A stretch of 42,362 bases of DNA from positions 1-42,362 of the forward strand of contig JAAZDN010000035.1 in NCBI GenBank assembly GCA_012512805.1. The letters run 5' to 3'. The position numbers and the translations under genes were made by a program. A model generated the notes under the pieces. It worked only from the letters and a program-made list of their open reading frames with translations, searched no databases and was not told where the DNA came from. Positions 4,704 to 32,620 of this stretch are shown piece by piece. Source of the stretch: Erysipelothrix sp. (GTDB lineage Bacteria > Bacillota_I > Bacilli_A > Erysipelotrichales > Erysipelotrichaceae). Within the stretch, counting starts at the first letter, position 1, and each line of letters begins with the position of its first letter.

Positions 4704-5147
4704 ATGCAAAGGTTATATAAACTTGTGATTTTGAGTTGTCTATTATTTTTAGTTGGCTGTTCTTCAAATGATCGTGTCCTAATTTGTAACTACAGGGATA
4801 CAGGAATTGTTTATGACTTACTTGTTCGAGAAGTGAAGGGTGATATTACATATGCCACCACAACATTTTATGTTGAGCAGTTAAACAGTGACGTTTCTGA
4901 TTCAGATATTTCCAGTTATAAAGAACAACTTAAGTCTTTTGCTCATTTGGATTTAGATAGCGTATATCGATATACTGATGGAGTTGCTTTGAGTTCGTTT
5001 ATTAATCTTCAAGATTTTGATAAAAACCTTGATTATAGTATTTGGTTTGAAGATTTCAATTCATCTACTGAAATCTCATTTAAATCTTTACAAGAGCAAG
5101 CAAAGAATGCACTTGATTGTAAAGTAAGTAGTATAAAGACATCCTAG
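4704..5147 (+). CDS. Hypothetical lipoprotein
   Basis: 147 aa; N-terminus MQRLYKLVILSCLLFLVGCSS with lipobox; RBS aggagg. Confidence 0.75.
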   Translation: MQRLYKLVILSCLLFLVGCSSNDRVLICNYRDTGIVYDLLVREVKGDITYATTTFYVEQLNSDVSDSDISSYKEQLKSFAHLDLDSVYRYTDGVALSSFINLQDFDKNLDYSIWFEDFNSSTEISFKSLQEQAKNALDCKVSSIKTS

Positions 5148-7226: not shown

Positions 7227-7477
7227 TTATCCACAGTGTGTGGATAAGGTGTATAACTAAGTTTAGCCTTTATACATAAGGTTTATTGCCACTTATCAAC
7301 TAACAATTACATTTTATTTTTTTATTCTTTACACCTTTATTAACAGTTTTAAATACCAAGGGGATAAGTCTTTAAATATTTATCTTATTTTATCCCCTAA
7401 AAAACTTGTGGATAACTGTGGATAACTTTTCTAAAGGTATGTGTAAAGGCTTGTTGAGAACTATCTGTTGTGGATAA
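7227..7477. other. oriC part 1: DnaA-box cluster upstream of dnaA
   Basis: Perfect TTATCCACA boxes: 7227-7235 (+), 7239-7247 (-), 7407-7415 (-), 7417-7425 (-), 7469-7477 (-), in an AT-rich intergenic region. Confidence 0.92.
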
Positions 7478-7550
7478 TTTTTTATATAATATTTTTACTT
7501 TTAACTTACACAGTTTTAAGGTAGAATATTAATAATAAGGCGGTGATATA

Positions 7551-8924
7551 ATGACAAATAAGAATTCAAAATATAATGGTTATTGGGATAATATCGCCAC
7601 ACTTTTAAAAGAATCAATGGATAATGATGTTGTATTCGATACGTATTTTTTAGAAACACAGATTCATGAAATTACGGAGAATAATATTATTCGGTTGGAA
7701 GTAAAGTCTAATATGGATAAAATGGTTCATGGACAGTTTACAGATTTGATTAGTGCGGCAGCGAATACCGTTCTTGAAGGTAATTATAGTATTGAAGTAT
7801 ATAGTAAAGATGAATTAGAAGTACTCATTAAGAACAGTAAACCTAAAAAAGTTAATATGAAACTAGATTTGGATATTGATCTTGTCGATAACTTATTGGA
7901 TAAGTTTACCTTTGAAAATTTTATTGTTGGGGAAAGTAATAAAGAGAGTCATGCTGCTTCATTAGCAAGTGCAATTCGTCCTGGTGAGTTTTATAACCCA
8001 CTCTTTATTTATGGTAACTCTGGACTTGGAAAAACTCATTTACTGCATGCAATTGGAAACTATGTTAAGAAAAGTAGTAAGGGGAAGTTAAAGGTCTTAT
8101 ACATTACAAGTAATGATTATGTGACTCGTGTTGTAAATAGTTTTAAAAACAATAGTATTGAAGAGTTTAAACAAGACATGTATAACTTAGATGTACTCTT
8201 AATTGATGATATCCAATTTTTAGCTGGTAAGGAAAAGTCACATGAAATTTTCTTCTCCATCTTTAATGAACTTGTGAACAATAGAAAACAGATTGTCATA
8301 ACAAGTGATAAGCATCCTACTGAAATTAATGGACTTGAAGATCGTTTGATCAGTCGTTTCTATTCAGGATTGTCTACAAGTCTTGATTCTCCTGAGTTTG
8401 AAGTTGCTTATCGTATATTAGAGAAGAAGATGGAACAACAGATGATTAGTCCTGAGAGTGTTGATCCTGATGTTATATCCTATTTAGCAACAAACTTCTC
8501 TAAAGATGTTCGTAAACTTGAAGGAGCACTCAATCGTTTAATTTTCTTTGCAATTAACTTTGGTAAGGATTCACAGATTACGATGCAAGTTGCAACGAAG
8601 GCATTTAAGAATGATCATAAGAAGGTTAATGATATTCTTAGCTTAGATTCCATTAAAGAGACGGTAGCAACCTATTATGGCTTAACGATTAAACAAATTG
8701 ATTCTAAGAATAGAACGGGGATTATTGTTAACGCACGACATATCTCAATGTACTTAGTTCGTAAACATTTGGATATATCATATAATCAAATAGGACAAGC
8801 CTTTGGTGGGCGTGATCACTCAACGGTTATTAGTGCATATGATAAAATAATGGCGAAACTAAAGTCTGATACGAGTTATCAATTAGCAATATCAGAAATA
8901 GAAAAGAAGATTTTAGTGAATTAG
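7551..8924 (+). CDS. dnaA: Chromosomal replication initiator protein DnaA
   Basis: 457 aa; GNSGLGKTHLLHAIGNY Walker A, LLIDDIQFLAGKE, C-terminal GGRDHSTVISAYDKI. Confidence 0.99.
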   Translation: MTNKNSKYNGYWDNIATLLKESMDNDVVFDTYFLETQIHEITENNIIRLEVKSNMDKMVHGQFTDLISAAANTVLEGNYSIEVYSKDELEVLIKNSKPKKVNMKLDLDIDLVDNLLDKFTFENFIVGESNKESHAASLASAIRPGEFYNPLFIYGNSGLGKTHLLHAIGNYVKKSSKGKLKVLYITSNDYVTRVVNSFKNNSIEEFKQDMYNLDVLLIDDIQFLAGKEKSHEIFFSIFNELVNNRKQIVITSDKHPTEINGLEDRLISRFYSGLSTSLDSPEFEVAYRILEKKMEQQMISPESVDPDVISYLATNFSKDVRKLEGALNRLIFFAINFGKDSQITMQVATKAFKNDHKKVNDILSLDSIKETVATYYGLTIKQIDSKNRTGIIVNARHISMYLVRKHLDISYNQIGQAFGGRDHSTVISAYDKIMAKLKSDTSYQLAISEIEKKILVN

Positions 8925-24133: not shown

Positions 24134-24919
24134 ATGCTTTATACAATTGTACATAGAAACGATGAACTTTCAATTGCAACGAGTAACTATATTAAAAGCA
24201 AATTAGAGAATACGAAGATGCACTATGATGAAGAACATCCAGAATTAATTATTGTTGTAGGGGGAGATGGAACCTTTTTACTCGGTGTCCATAAGTACCT
24301 TGAAAATATCTCCAATATCATTATGGTAGGTATTCACACTGGAACACTTGGATTTTTTGCGGACTTCCAACTTGATGAAGTCGACTATCTTATTGAATGT
24401 ATTCTAACAAAAGAGCCACGTGTCAATACAAAACGACTTTTAAAAGTAGATCTTCAAACAAAAGATGATCATAAAGCATACTATGCCTTAAATGAAGCGC
24501 GTATTGAAAATATAATTAAAACACAAATATTAGATGTAACGATTGATAATGTCCATCTTGAAACATTTAGAGGAACAGGATTATGTCTTTCAACCCAACC
24601 AGGATCAACAGGATACAACAGATCTTTAAAAGCTGCGGTAATTTCAGATAAAATAGAAATGATTCAAGTAGCAGAAATTACAGGAATCCATCATCGCTTG
24701 TTCCAATCCTTACAAGTGCCACTCATCTTACACCCTGATTCAGAAATTAAGCTTACAAGTCCGAGCTTCCATGAAGCAATTATGTGCTATGATCATTTAA
24801 GTATTCCAATTCATGATGTCACTGAGGTAAATGTGACATTATCCAAGTCAAAATCAGTAAACTTTGCCCGCTATCATGAAAACATTACGTATACACACCG
24901 TATTCGATCATTATTTTAA
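24134..24919 (+). CDS. nadK: NAD kinase
   Basis: IIVVGGDGTFLLGVHKYL; GIHTGTLGFFADF; TQPGSTGYNRSLKAAV. Confidence 0.94.
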   Translation: MLYTIVHRNDELSIATSNYIKSKLENTKMHYDEEHPELIIVVGGDGTFLLGVHKYLENISNIIMVGIHTGTLGFFADFQLDEVDYLIECILTKEPRVNTKRLLKVDLQTKDDHKAYYALNEARIENIIKTQILDVTIDNVHLETFRGTGLCLSTQPGSTGYNRSLKAAVISDKIEMIQVAEITGIHHRLFQSLQVPLILHPDSEIKLTSPSFHEAIMCYDHLSIPIHDVTEVNVTLSKSKSVNFARYHENITYTHRIRSLF

Positions 24920-24985: not shown

Positions 24986-26179
24986 TTATTTGAAGAAGGC
25001 ACCATTTTTTTGAATGTTGTCACTCGACATTTTGAAGATGACTGCAAGTGGAATCATATAAGACCAGAGTGATGATCCACCATAAGATATAAAGGGAAGG
25101 GTAATTCCCGTTATCGGTAAGAGTCCGGTGATCATTCCCATATTTTCTACTTGTTGAAAGACGATCATTCCAAGCACGCCAGCAACCATTAATTTATCAC
25201 GTTGATTATCACTGTTGTATGCAATACTTAAGAATTTTAGATCAAGGATTCCGCTGAGTGTCACAACAAGTGTTGTTCCAATAAATCCAAAGTTTTGTCC
25301 AATGACCGCAAAGATGAAGTCATTTTGTGGTTCTGCAAAGGATACGACAACTTCTTTGAGAGGATGTCCTGTAAGTCCAGCTGATCCAAGGGCTAAGAGT
25401 CCTTGATACAGTTGATTACCCCAAGATCTAACATATTTTTCAGGTTCTAACCAACCATAGAAACGACTGATTCTTAGGGAGTCTCCAAATAGTTTAACGA
25501 GCAGTTGTTGATTCGTAAAGAAGATAAAGAGAAAGCCAATAAAGATTGCGGCGAAACCTAAGACAGAAACATAGATCCATGCCTTTTTTATACCACTGAC
25601 AAAGACCATGGCAACTAAACTAAAGATAATAATGAGTGGAATTCCTGTATCAGGTTGTAAAATAATTAATATTAATGGTGGGATCGCCACTTTAAATATT
25701 TTCATAAAGAGACTAAAGTCTTCAGCATATGAATTTGAGAGTTTTGTTTGATTGTGTGTACTGATAATTTCAGCAGATCTTAAGATTAAGACAATTTTCA
25801 TAAACTCACTCGGCTGGAAGTTTCCAATACCTGGAAAGACAAACCAAGCACGTGCATTATTAATTTCACGGACAAAGGGAACCATGTTTGTAAAGCGATC
25901 GATGATTAAGAGTGAGAGCATAAACATTAAAAACCAATAAATATAAGGAAGCATACCGTATAGATTATTAATTCCAAAGTTTAATAGCACTCCAACAAGC
26001 ATTGCCCCTGTAACATACCAGACAATTTGTCGATTCACAAGTCCACTAATACCAGCACTTAAGAGAGGTGTTGCCATGTAAATTGAAAGAAGGCTGACGG
26101 AAAAGAGACATCCGAGTATACCAAGCAGAACCCAGTCCATATTGAATTTCTGTTGCACAAGATTACTTGCTAAGCGCAT
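24986..26179 (-). CDS. FtsW/RodA/SpoVE family peptidoglycan glycosyltransferase
   Basis: 397 aa; ARAWFVFPGIGNFQPSEFMKIVLIL; AEPQNDFIFAVIGQNFGFIGT; TGLLPITGITLPFISYGGSS. Confidence 0.93.
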   Translation of the reverse strand: MRLASNLVQQKFNMDWVLLGILGCLFSVSLLSIYMATPLLSAGISGLVNRQIVWYVTGAMLVGVLLNFGINNLYGMLPYIYWFLMFMLSLLIIDRFTNMVPFVREINNARAWFVFPGIGNFQPSEFMKIVLILRSAEIISTHNQTKLSNSYAEDFSLFMKIFKVAIPPLILIILQPDTGIPLIIIFSLVAMVFVSGIKKAWIYVSVLGFAAIFIGFLFIFFTNQQLLVKLFGDSLRISRFYGWLEPEKYVRSWGNQLYQGLLALGSAGLTGHPLKEVVVSFAEPQNDFIFAVIGQNFGFIGTTLVVTLSGILDLKFLSIAYNSDNQRDKLMVAGVLGMIVFQQVENMGMITGLLPITGITLPFISYGGSSLWSYMIPLAVIFKMSSDNIQKNGAFFK

Positions 26180-26598: not shown

Positions 26599-26659
26599 AA
26601 TAACCCTCCTTATTGATAGTACTATGTAATAATGGTATCATATTTAAGAGGTGTAGTGT

Positions 26660-28204
26660 ATGCGTAAATTCAAAATTGATTTTGAAACAATCAAATATCC
26701 ACTCATTATAATGTTAATGATGTCGGTTCTTAAAGGAATAAGTAATACCATTTTAAGTGATGCCGTTGCACCTTATATTGGAAGTAGTTACCAATGGTTA
26801 ATTGGGCTTATGGGTATTATGCAATACTTTAGTAGTGTTGTTATCCAATATTTACCTTTTATATTTATTATTATGTATTTAGTGAAAACGTATCGTGATC
26901 AAAGAATTATTGTTATGTTCTTTGTTTCATTTATTTTAATTGCCACAACAACAGCCGTTGTAGGATCGACAAGTTTACCGCAGCAAGCCTATGGTTCACT
27001 CTTTTCTCTAAACCTTGAAAAAACATTGAGCATTAACTCAATACAAGTAATACTACAACCGTTTCGGATTGGATTCTTTGCGACATTAATTTCCGCAACC
27101 ATTGTAGCCTATTCATACCGTGCTACTCGAACACGAACACGATATGCACTCTTTAACTTTATTGATAAAGATTCTTTAGCAACAATGTATACCGTTGTAA
27201 TTTCATTTATTGTCGGACTCATCCTTGTATTTGTGTGGCCAATAGTTATAAATATTTTATTTTCAATTATAAATTGGATTGGCAGTGACATTTCTAATCC
27301 AACACATTTATATGCCTATGGTATCCTTGATAAATTATTAGGAATCTTTGAACTCTCACCATTAAATAAAAGCACCTTCCTCTTCCAAGGAATGGGAGGT
27401 ACGTGGATCAGTAACACAGGTGTTAGTTTTGTAGGTGACGCCAACATCTGGAAGGCAGTCCTAAACTTTAGTGTCTTTGATACAGGATTTGGTCGTTACA
27501 TGACACCGTACTATATTATTAATCTCTTTGCGATACCAGGTATATTTGTAGGACTCATTAGTTTATATACAAAAAAGAGTGAACGTTACAATCATGCAGT
27601 GCTCTTAATTTTCTTAACAATATTTACCTTTATTGCGGATTTATCCTTACCAGTAGAAATTTTTATCTTTATTACAGCACCCTTACTGTTTGTCTTCCAT
27701 ATTATTATTACGGGCTTTCTCTTTGCGGTACTATCAACATCAAAGATCGTATTGGGGAGTGTCTTTGCGGATGGCGTAAATAATATAGCGTATGGTAACG
27801 GTCTTGAACTTATTGGTTATTTAAAAAATCATAACCTTGTCACAACCGTTATAAGTATCTTTATTATCGGAGTTATCGTACTCTTACTCTATGTCTTTGT
27901 TACTCGAATCTATTACAAGCACTTTGCAATTGGACTTATAAACAAATATGAGATAGATCATACCGTAGATCAATTCCTTGAAATTGTAGGTGGTATTGAT
28001 AATATTGAAGAAATTAACTCAAGTCCATTTAGAGTTTCCGTAAAATTAAAACGACCACAAATGTTTGATTATGATTTATTAGAACAATCAAATGTTTCAC
28101 GTGTTAATGAAACACGATCTGAATATGCACTGTACTACGGAACAATCAGTACAATTATTCGTAGTAATGTCTTACTTCGTAAACAATTAATCAGCGAGGA
28201 TTAA
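26660..28204 (+). CDS. PTS EIIC-like membrane protein with C-terminal EIIB-like domain lacking the phospho-cysteine
   Basis: 514 aa polytopic protein with glucose-superfamily EIIC-like features (LPVEIFIFITAPLLFVFHIIITG at the GITEP region) and EIIB-like FLEIVGGIDNIEEINSSPFRVSVKL. No cysteine in the translation. Confidence 0.7.
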   Translation: MRKFKIDFETIKYPLIIMLMMSVLKGISNTILSDAVAPYIGSSYQWLIGLMGIMQYFSSVVIQYLPFIFIIMYLVKTYRDQRIIVMFFVSFILIATTTAVVGSTSLPQQAYGSLFSLNLEKTLSINSIQVILQPFRIGFFATLISATIVAYSYRATRTRTRYALFNFIDKDSLATMYTVVISFIVGLILVFVWPIVINILFSIINWIGSDISNPTHLYAYGILDKLLGIFELSPLNKSTFLFQGMGGTWISNTGVSFVGDANIWKAVLNFSVFDTGFGRYMTPYYIINLFAIPGIFVGLISLYTKKSERYNHAVLLIFLTIFTFIADLSLPVEIFIFITAPLLFVFHIIITGFLFAVLSTSKIVLGSVFADGVNNIAYGNGLELIGYLKNHNLVTTVISIFIIGVIVLLLYVFVTRIYYKHFAIGLINKYEIDHTVDQFLEIVGGIDNIEEINSSPFRVSVKLKRPQMFDYDLLEQSNVSRVNETRSEYALYYGTISTIIRSNVLLRKQLISED

Positions 28205-28224
28205 ACAATCTAAAAATTATATGA

Positions 28225-28258
28225 GATGGACACCACGTAACTGTGATGTCCATTTTTT
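28225..28258 (+). terminator. Rho-independent terminator
   Basis: GATGGACACCAC-GTAACT-GTGATGTCCATTTTTT. Confidence 0.8.
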
Positions 28259-30459: not shown

Positions 30460-30801
30460 ATGCGTTTATTAAAAGGAATAAGTATTATTTTTGGTTTTAC
30501 GTTTTTAGGAGAGTTCTTAAGTTTAAACCTAAACTTGTTTATACCAGGGAGTATTGTCGGTTTATTACTACTCTTTGGAGCATTACAATTTAAAATCATT
30601 AAGCTTGAAGCAGTAGGAGATGTAGCAATGGCTTTTCAAAAAAACATGGCCTTTCTCTTTGTGCCATTAGTCGTGAATTTAACGAGTCAAAGTCGACTCT
30701 TAATAAAATATGGAATTCAATTACTCTTAATTATTGTGGTCTCAACAACGATCACATATTTTAGTGTTGCGAAAGTTAGTGAGCGATTAGATCATGAATA
30801 A
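30460..30801 (+). CDS. lrgA: CidA/LrgA family holin-like protein
   Basis: 113 aa; LFIPGSIVGLLLLFGAL; MAFLFVPLVVNL; followed by lrgB. Confidence 0.9.
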   Translation: MRLLKGISIIFGFTFLGEFLSLNLNLFIPGSIVGLLLLFGALQFKIIKLEAVGDVAMAFQKNMAFLFVPLVVNLTSQSRLLIKYGIQLLLIIVVSTTITYFSVAKVSERLDHE

Positions 30802-31480
30802 TATATCATTTGGAATTGCAATGAGTTTAATTGCTTATTATTTCGTAGATGTGCTACAGAAGAAAACAAAGCAAGCATGGTTGAATCCGCTCTTATTTAG
30901 TGGTCTATTAATCATACTAATATTAAGTATATTTAATATTAGTATTGACGACTACATGCTTGGTGGTGATTTGATTAAGGCGTTGATTGCACCTGCAACG
31001 ATCTCTTTAGCCATTCCCTTATATAAGAATAAACAACTTATACTTGATAATGCAAAGCTCCTGTTTACTGCAGTGTGTTGTGGGATTGTGAGTAATCTTA
31101 TACTCGTACTTGCTGCGAAGCATCTTTTATCATTAAAAAATGAAGTGTTCTTATCGATTGTTCCTAAGTCGATCACAACTGCAATTGCAATAGATGTAGC
31201 AACGTATCTTGGTGGAATTACTGAGATAACGATCGCAACGGTTTTAATTACTGGAATCTTTGGTGCAATGTTATCACCACTATTCAATAAAATATTAAAC
31301 GTGAAGTCCGATAAAATTATAGGTTTAGCCTTAGGTACAAGTGCCCATGCGGTTGGAACTGCTAAGGCAGTAGGGACAAATGAAGTTCAAGGAGCCTTTG
31401 CAAGTACATCATTGATATTGAGTGGTTTATTAACCGTTTTACTTAATCCACTCTTTGTACAACTATTTAAGCTCTTATAA
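30794..31480 (+). CDS. lrgB: LrgB family protein
   Basis: 228 aa; LKNEVFLSIVPKSITTAIAIDVATYLGG; GLALGTSAHAVGTAKAVGTNEVQGAFASTSL. Confidence 0.94.
   Translation: MNNISFGIAMSLIAYYFVDVLQKKTKQAWLNPLLFSGLLIILILSIFNISIDDYMLGGDLIKALIAPATISLAIPLYKNKQLILDNAKLLFTAVCCGIVSNLILVLAAKHLLSLKNEVFLSIVPKSITTAIAIDVATYLGGITEITIATVLITGIFGAMLSPLFNKILNVKSDKIIGLALGTSAHAVGTAKAVGTNEVQGAFASTSLILSGLLTVLLNPLFVQLFKLL
30914..30945. repeat. Near-perfect 32-bp inverted repeat inside lrgB
   Basis: ATACTAATATTAA-GTATAT-TTAATATTAGTAT; 15 of 16 symmetric pairs complementary. Confidence 0.85.
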
Positions 31481-31546
31481 AAGATAATAATTTGACTAAG
31501 GAGGCTTAATTACTTATAATTCTATTGAAGTCTAAGGGATGATAAA

Positions 31547-32620
31547 ATGGCAAAATCTAAATTAACGATATCAGATGTCGCAAAGTTGGCAGGTGTTTCT
31601 AAAACAACGATATCACATTTTCTCAATGATAAATTTGAGTTTATGTCGGAATCAACACAAGAACATATTCGTAAAGTAATTATCGAATCTGGATACCAGC
31701 CAAGTAAAATTGCACAAAGTTTAAAAAGTCAAAATAGTTTTATTATTGGTGTTATTGTCTCTGATATTGAGAGTCCTTTTGTTGCGGGTTTAATTAAGAG
31801 TGTAGAGCGTGCCTTAGAAGGTACAAACTATCTCATTATGACCGCAAGTACGGATAATAGCTTAGATAAGGAAATTCAAGCCATTGAAGCGATGCGTGCT
31901 CAACAAGTTGATGGGCTTATCATCCATACGAGCAATAATGAAAACAATTATGTTCGAGAACTTGCAAAGAGTAATCTACCGATTGTTCTAGCAGATCGTT
32001 CCATAAAAAATGGTCAATTTGATATCGTATATGTCGATAATGTTCAACCAATTCAAAATGTGTTAGATCACTTACATGAAGAAGGATATGAAGATATTTA
32101 CTTCTTTACTGAAGATCCTGAATTTGTATCAACACGTGCCAATCGTGCAGAGGCCTTTAATGAGGCAATCAAAGCACATGATACTGATAATAAGGTACGT
32201 ATTATTAAGAGTGATGATTTTGATATGATTAAGGCTGAAATTGTTGAAATAATGGAACGCTATGTTCGTGAAGGAAAAAAACCAGCAATTGTTTGTGAGG
32301 GTGGACTGGTCCTCTTTGTCGTAGCGAAGTGTATGCGTGAGTTAGGTTTAAGCTTACCTGCAGAAATTGCCCTAAGTGGTTATGATGATTGGGGAGTCTT
32401 CTCACAATTAGGATGGGCAGACATGTTAGTCGATGGGATAACAACCGTAACACCATCCGTCTATGAACTTGGACAACGCGTCACAGACCTTCTTTTAACA
32501 CGTATTGCGAATCCAATGAGTGATCATGAGTCAGTCATTATTGAGGCTCCATTAATTATTCGTAACAGTACTGAACTTCGTAGCTATAACTTAAAACAAG
32601 CACAAAAGAAAAATGATTAA
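31547..32620 (+). CDS. LacI/GalR family transcriptional regulator
   Basis: 357 aa; N-terminal HTH LTISDVAKLAGVSKTTISHFLNDKFEFMSESTQEHIRKVI. Confidence 0.94.
   Translation: MAKSKLTISDVAKLAGVSKTTISHFLNDKFEFMSESTQEHIRKVIIESGYQPSKIAQSLKSQNSFIIGVIVSDIESPFVAGLIKSVERALEGTNYLIMTASTDNSLDKEIQAIEAMRAQQVDGLIIHTSNNENNYVRELAKSNLPIVLADRSIKNGQFDIVYVDNVQPIQNVLDHLHEEGYEDIYFFTEDPEFVSTRANRAEAFNEAIKAHDTDNKVRIIKSDDFDMIKAEIVEIMERYVREGKKPAIVCEGGLVLFVVAKCMRELGLSLPAEIALSGYDDWGVFSQLGWADMLVDGITTVTPSVYELGQRVTDLLLTRIANPMSDHESVIIEAPLIIRNSTELRSYNLKQAQKKND

Follow-up and report, generated by a model that had tools for sequence, protein, structure and literature searches.

A PTS EIICB-like protein of Erysipelothrix sp. without the phosphorylation site, and its Cys-less homologues in the same bacterial class

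Introduction

The enzymes II of the phosphotransferase system (PTS) are textbook machines that transport sugars and phosphorylate them. In PtsG, the EIICB-Glc of Escherichia coli, glucose is contacted by E202, R203, H211, H212, N215, K257, T297 and E298 of the EIIC domain (PMC11393339). In mycoplasmas, an 'orphan PTS EIIB' has been described, MG_129 of Mycoplasma genitalium, with MPN_268 in M. pneumoniae. According to the available part of that study, an interface between MG_129 and FtsY is predicted, and one crosslink in M. pneumoniae joins the homologue to FtsY, the crosslinked residues being 33.4 Å apart in the model; in addition, AF3 sets PtsH and MG_129 together on FtsY. Neither Cys loss nor a wider clade is mentioned in that part of the study (PMC13047044). 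Here, we describe a full-length Cys-less EIICB-like protein encoded in a 42,362-nt contig of Erysipelothrix sp. (JAAZDN010000035.1), hereafter called the window, and its homologues.

Results

An intact gene for a PtsG-related protein

The gene of interest (26660-28204, + strand) is an intact open reading frame with an ATG start and a TAA stop, and it codes for 514 residues, none of which is Cys. It is preceded by the Shine-Dalgarno-like sequence AAGAGGTG (26646-26653, +), 6 nt upstream of the ATG, and followed by a stem-loop with a T-run (about 28223-28258, +; fold of -15.6 kcal/mol, z=-4.3), a probable terminator that a simple terminator scan missed because of a mismatch. The initial annotation, which described a Cys-free, intact frame with a ribosome-binding site and a terminator, was thus accurate. 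Promoter matches near the gene start were no commoner than in shuffled sequences.

With the single sequence as a query, the Pfam and NCBIfam matches were sub-threshold (25.6 bits for the PTS_EIIC model PF02378, cut-off 30.7; 77 bits for TIGR02002, a glucose-type EIICB model, cut-off 592), and profiles were therefore needed. A family profile made from 22 Cys-less full-length relatives, with no canonical row, matched E. coli PtsG (8qsr/9hnp) at E=1e-40 over positions 13-511. This whole-length match makes the EIIC-EIIB relationship secure, including the likeness of the C-terminal part to glucose-type EIIBs that had been proposed from the letters alone. The order of the domains is EIIC then EIIB, with an EIIC-like domain of approximately residues 1-425 (26660-27934, +) predicted by hydropathy to harbour about 10 hydrophobic segments, and an EIIB-like domain of approximately residues 432-505 (27953-28174, +).

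In the profile alignment, the phospho-acceptor C421 of PtsG is replaced by S455 (codon 28022-28024, +), and T423/R424 of the same C-x-T-R-L-R motif align with F457/R458. Of the residues that contact glucose in PtsG, E202, R203, H211 and H212 correspond to D224, K225, S233 and P234, and N215, K257, T297 and E298 to K237, N288, S329 and L330, respectively. Both the missing phospho-acceptor Cys and the changed GITEP motif (T297/E298), which had been noticed at the outset, were therefore found again by alignment. The replacements follow a pattern in the 22 relatives. The Cys421 column holds Ser in 14 of them, Thr in 4, Asn in 2 and Ala and Gly in 1 each; in the E298 column, Leu is found in 17 and Glu in none; the K257 column (N288) has Asn in 21; the N215 column is Arg in 17 and the Q219 column Trp in 19. 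R or K is kept in the R203 column in 20 of 22 sequences, and D260 and Y220 are invariant polar residues of EIIC. As these active-site changes are common to the family and not scattered, they argue for remodelling over decay.

Conservation in the family of the window

We searched 36 genomes of the family to which the window belongs, its own genome included. A scan of contigs had found one relative only. Full-length orthologues, 25-57% identical, are present in 22 of the 36 genomes, none with a C-x-T-R motif. Together with three from a later search, all 25 full-length relatives lack the phospho-acceptor Cys, and most of them sit at the same locus, near the genes for NAD kinase (NadK) and RodA. 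Most orthologues harbour 1 to 8 Cys elsewhere, and the phospho-acceptor is the only Cys that is consistently gone; the family as a whole is not Cys-free.

The mean pairwise identity in the family is about 33% for EIIC and 31% for EIIB; both NadK (42%) and RodA (49%) are better conserved. Relative to its nearest relative, the window protein is 57% identical, with pS of 0.71 and pN of 0.28, and codon-position differences are 0.37, 0.21 and 0.55 for the first, second and third positions, the last being the highest. The frame is under amino-acid constraint. As dS is near saturation (2.1), the dN/dS ratio is not usable as a measure. With a family-wide loss of the Cys and constrained substitutions, the view that this is a repurposed PTS fold and not a decaying gene is upheld.

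Genetic environment

The gene lies downstream of those for NadK (24134-24919, +), a conserved neighbour of the family that is also found in M. genitalium, and for a RodA/FtsW-type protein (24986-26179, -), a conserved divergent neighbour in this family and in its sister family (both identified from Pfam and synteny). Further along, at 30460-32620, the window carries an LrgA/LrgB-type gene pair and then a gene for a LacI-family regulator.

No gene for HPr, EI or EIIA was found on the 42-kb contig; single genes for these proteins are present on other contigs of the genome (C6, C117 and C106, respectively). The initial remark that no EIIA or HPr gene is nearby thus holds for the contig, but not for the genome.

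Short homologues across the class

The full-length form was found in the family of the window only. Elsewhere in this GTDB class, in 14 further families, the homologues are short (about 100-225 residues) and lack EIIC, usually consisting of one helix (up to four) and a Cys-less EIIB domain. The sister family has, beside the rodA and nadK genes, a gene for a protein of 108-177 residues with one helix and a Cys-less EIIB-like domain, and this locus is thus common to its short form and to the long form. The gene is found away from the nadK locus in several further families of the grouping, and no single neighbour is conserved class-wide. A class-wide search gave matches in 274 of 346 genomes, some of which are canonical EIIBs, and a phylum-level search returned genomes of the same class only.

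Of the 110 short homologues examined in these 14 families, 109 are without the Cys. The remaining one (locus L108, 6407-6895, -) has kept it (SCLSRIRI), with ptsH directly downstream, and may represent an intermediate state. Thus, Cys loss is common to more than 130 relatives over 15 families, and the window protein is not a lone degenerate copy. Other genes accompany the short form in some lineages: in family f12, a gene for a sensor histidine kinase usually follows on the same strand (e.g. L133, 7405-8607), immediately downstream in 20 of 32 loci, and in family f17 a transketolase gene is downstream in 8 of 8 loci (e.g. L118, 7405-9348).

We built a tree of the EIIB domains from 67 columns, after removal of the CxTR columns and disregarding as a canonical sequence the row L011_canon, a full-length Cys-less protein with another Cys. 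Canonical EIIBs, PtsG included, are split at 95/88 from all Cys-less homologues, and the EIIB-like domain of the window protein is on the Cys-less side. The inner branches are weak and their order is poorly resolved; the helix of some short homologues aligns with the last helix of EIIC. The short form may derive from a truncated EIICB, or the long one from a later fusion with an EIIC. No named family corresponds to these homologues in Pfam or NCBIfam, and we found no description of the clade in the open-licence papers searched. The EIIB fold and MG_129 are already known; the Cys-less grouping is proposed here and is not a named family.

Carriers devoid of PTS components

A Pfam search identified neither HPr nor EI in 42 of 78 carrier genomes. 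In particular, both are absent from all 28 carriers of family f12 and all 8 of family f8, nearly all of which are 93-99% complete. In those organisms, the function of the short form therefore cannot need the PTS.

The mycoplasma orphan EIIB

One of the genomes, G384, which we take to be M. genitalium G37, shows the gene order Cof-TrpS-Spx-NadK, a gene for a 117-residue protein, and one for a 484-residue protein that is presumably RNase Y, given its position and the gene order of M. genitalium. The 117-residue protein has a Thr at the Cys position and matches the profile at E=1.4e-19. By its profile match, Cys loss and gene order, the orphan EIIB MG_129 is assigned to the Cys-less homologues.

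Discussion

We lean towards the view that the gene codes for a non-phosphorylating, PTS-derived membrane protein with an EIIB-like domain to which a partner in the cytosol docks. It would be a pseudo-enzyme II that has a glucose-type PTS permease (EIICB) as its ancestor but has lost the ability to import and phosphorylate sugar in the PTS manner. Its EIIB-like domain would be cytosolic, held at the membrane by the complete EIIC in the family of the window and by one to four helices in the other families, and it would offer a docking surface rather than act as a phospho-carrier. Loss of the Cys and of the sugar site is recurrent, often in species without such an uptake pathway, and the protein therefore probably has another job. 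Among candidate partners, the SRP receptor FtsY comes first, a tentative proposal suggested by the published M. pneumoniae and M. genitalium data (PMC13047044), which provide the only physical evidence for any partner, albeit weak; HPr is a plausible second candidate in the lineages that have it. The initial annotation had offered a transporter, a sensor or a scaffold: a repurposed fold is supported, and which of the three it is has to be inferred.

The conservation of EIIC, at about 33% identity with D260 and Y220 invariant and Asn in 21 of 22 sequences at N288, suggests that this domain itself does something. If it served as an anchor and nothing else, there would be no need for conservation over 425 residues, which counts against a docking-only view. 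Accordingly, it is conceivable, if rather unlikely, that EIIC is a transporter, facilitator or sensor for a different, unphosphorylated ligand, and that the EIIB-like part is regulatory or a remnant. EIIC is as conserved as EIIB, and its former sugar site is altered alike family-wide (N215, Q219, K257 and E298 columns, with R or K at R203), a conserved and remodelled pocket that leaves some room for a new ligand. However, EIIC is missing from 14 other families in which the EIIB-like part persists, and the AlphaFold2 model, calculated from a two-row alignment of the window protein and L005, has a pLDDT of 37, which is not adequate for pocket geometry.

Somewhat less probable still is a role as a regulatory partner of HPr, with the protein acting as a membrane tether or sink that would read HPr phosphorylation on Ser46. 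In 18 loci of 6 families, ptsH is directly downstream on the same strand, often with a 4-nt overlap, and the joint placement of PtsH and MG_129 on FtsY mentioned above would agree with such a role. Three of these 18 linked HPr proteins lack His15 and have kept the Ser46 region; in the genomes of L121 and L174, the HPr without His15 is the single one, and HPr kinase is present without EI. The three genes are at 7423-7689 (+) of L121, 5336-5602 (+) of L174 and 4755-5027 (-) of L181, with Gln (GLQARPA) or Cys (GLCVKPA) in place of His. Nevertheless, the ptsH gene of the window genome is on another contig, and since so many carriers lack both HPr and EI, partnering with HPr cannot be the universal function.

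It is very improbable that the protein is still a PTS permease in which Ser455, or some other residue, has taken over from Cys as the phospho-acceptor. Ser or Thr occupies the position in 18 of the 22 full-length relatives, and EI, HPr and EIIA are present in the window genome, but many homologues have Asn, Glu, Lys, Asp, Ala, Gly or others there, the residues equivalent to Glu298 and Thr297 of GITEP, His211/212 and Lys257 are replaced as well, and many genomes with short homologues lack EI. Lastly, although the assembly is fragmented and has 6.6% contamination, a pseudogene, chimera or assembly error is refuted by the conserved family, since the frame is intact, differs most from its nearest relative at third codon positions, and is found again at this locus in numerous independent genomes.

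Returning to the docking model, we tentatively propose a broader reading, that of a PTS-independent membrane protein, close to universal in the Erysipelotrichia/Mollicutes class and retained even by M. genitalium, that arose from a sugar permease and might take part in a core process, e.g. by docking FtsY. The window gene would then be the full-length form that shows the origin of the mycoplasma orphan EIIB. A class-wide EIIB clade without its phosphorylation site, persisting even where EI and HPr are gone, points to a second life of the EIIB fold that has been overlooked. For the orphan EIIB in the near-minimal cells of mycoplasmas, this provides a family, a likely origin and tractable relatives, and opens its function to experiments in more easily cultured organisms.

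Comparison with known systems

One of the closest known systems is E. coli PtsG (IICB-Glc; 8qsr, 9hnp; TIGR02002-type EIICB), with which the window protein is collinear over EIIC and EIIB. Unlike PtsG, it lacks the equivalents of Cys421, Glu298, Thr297, His211, His212 and Lys257, and its scores against PtsG-type models are far under the curated cut-offs. The canonical EIIBs of the same genome (contigs C92, C101 and C106) belong to the same EIIB fold family; in contrast with the window protein, their Cys motif is intact (NCMTRVRV, YCVTRLRL, HCVTRLRF and TCMTRLHI), and they fall in the canonical clade of the tree. The mycoplasma orphan PTS EIIBs MG_129 and MPN_268 (PMC13047044) share with it a Cys-less EIIB-like domain and a membrane anchor. 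The MG_129 gene directly follows that for NAD kinase in M. genitalium, as the window gene is near the nadK/rodA locus, and both proteins are on the same side of the EIIB tree. They differ in their membrane parts, since MG_129 lacks EIIC and has a single helix at its N-terminus, whereas the EIIC of the window protein is complete.
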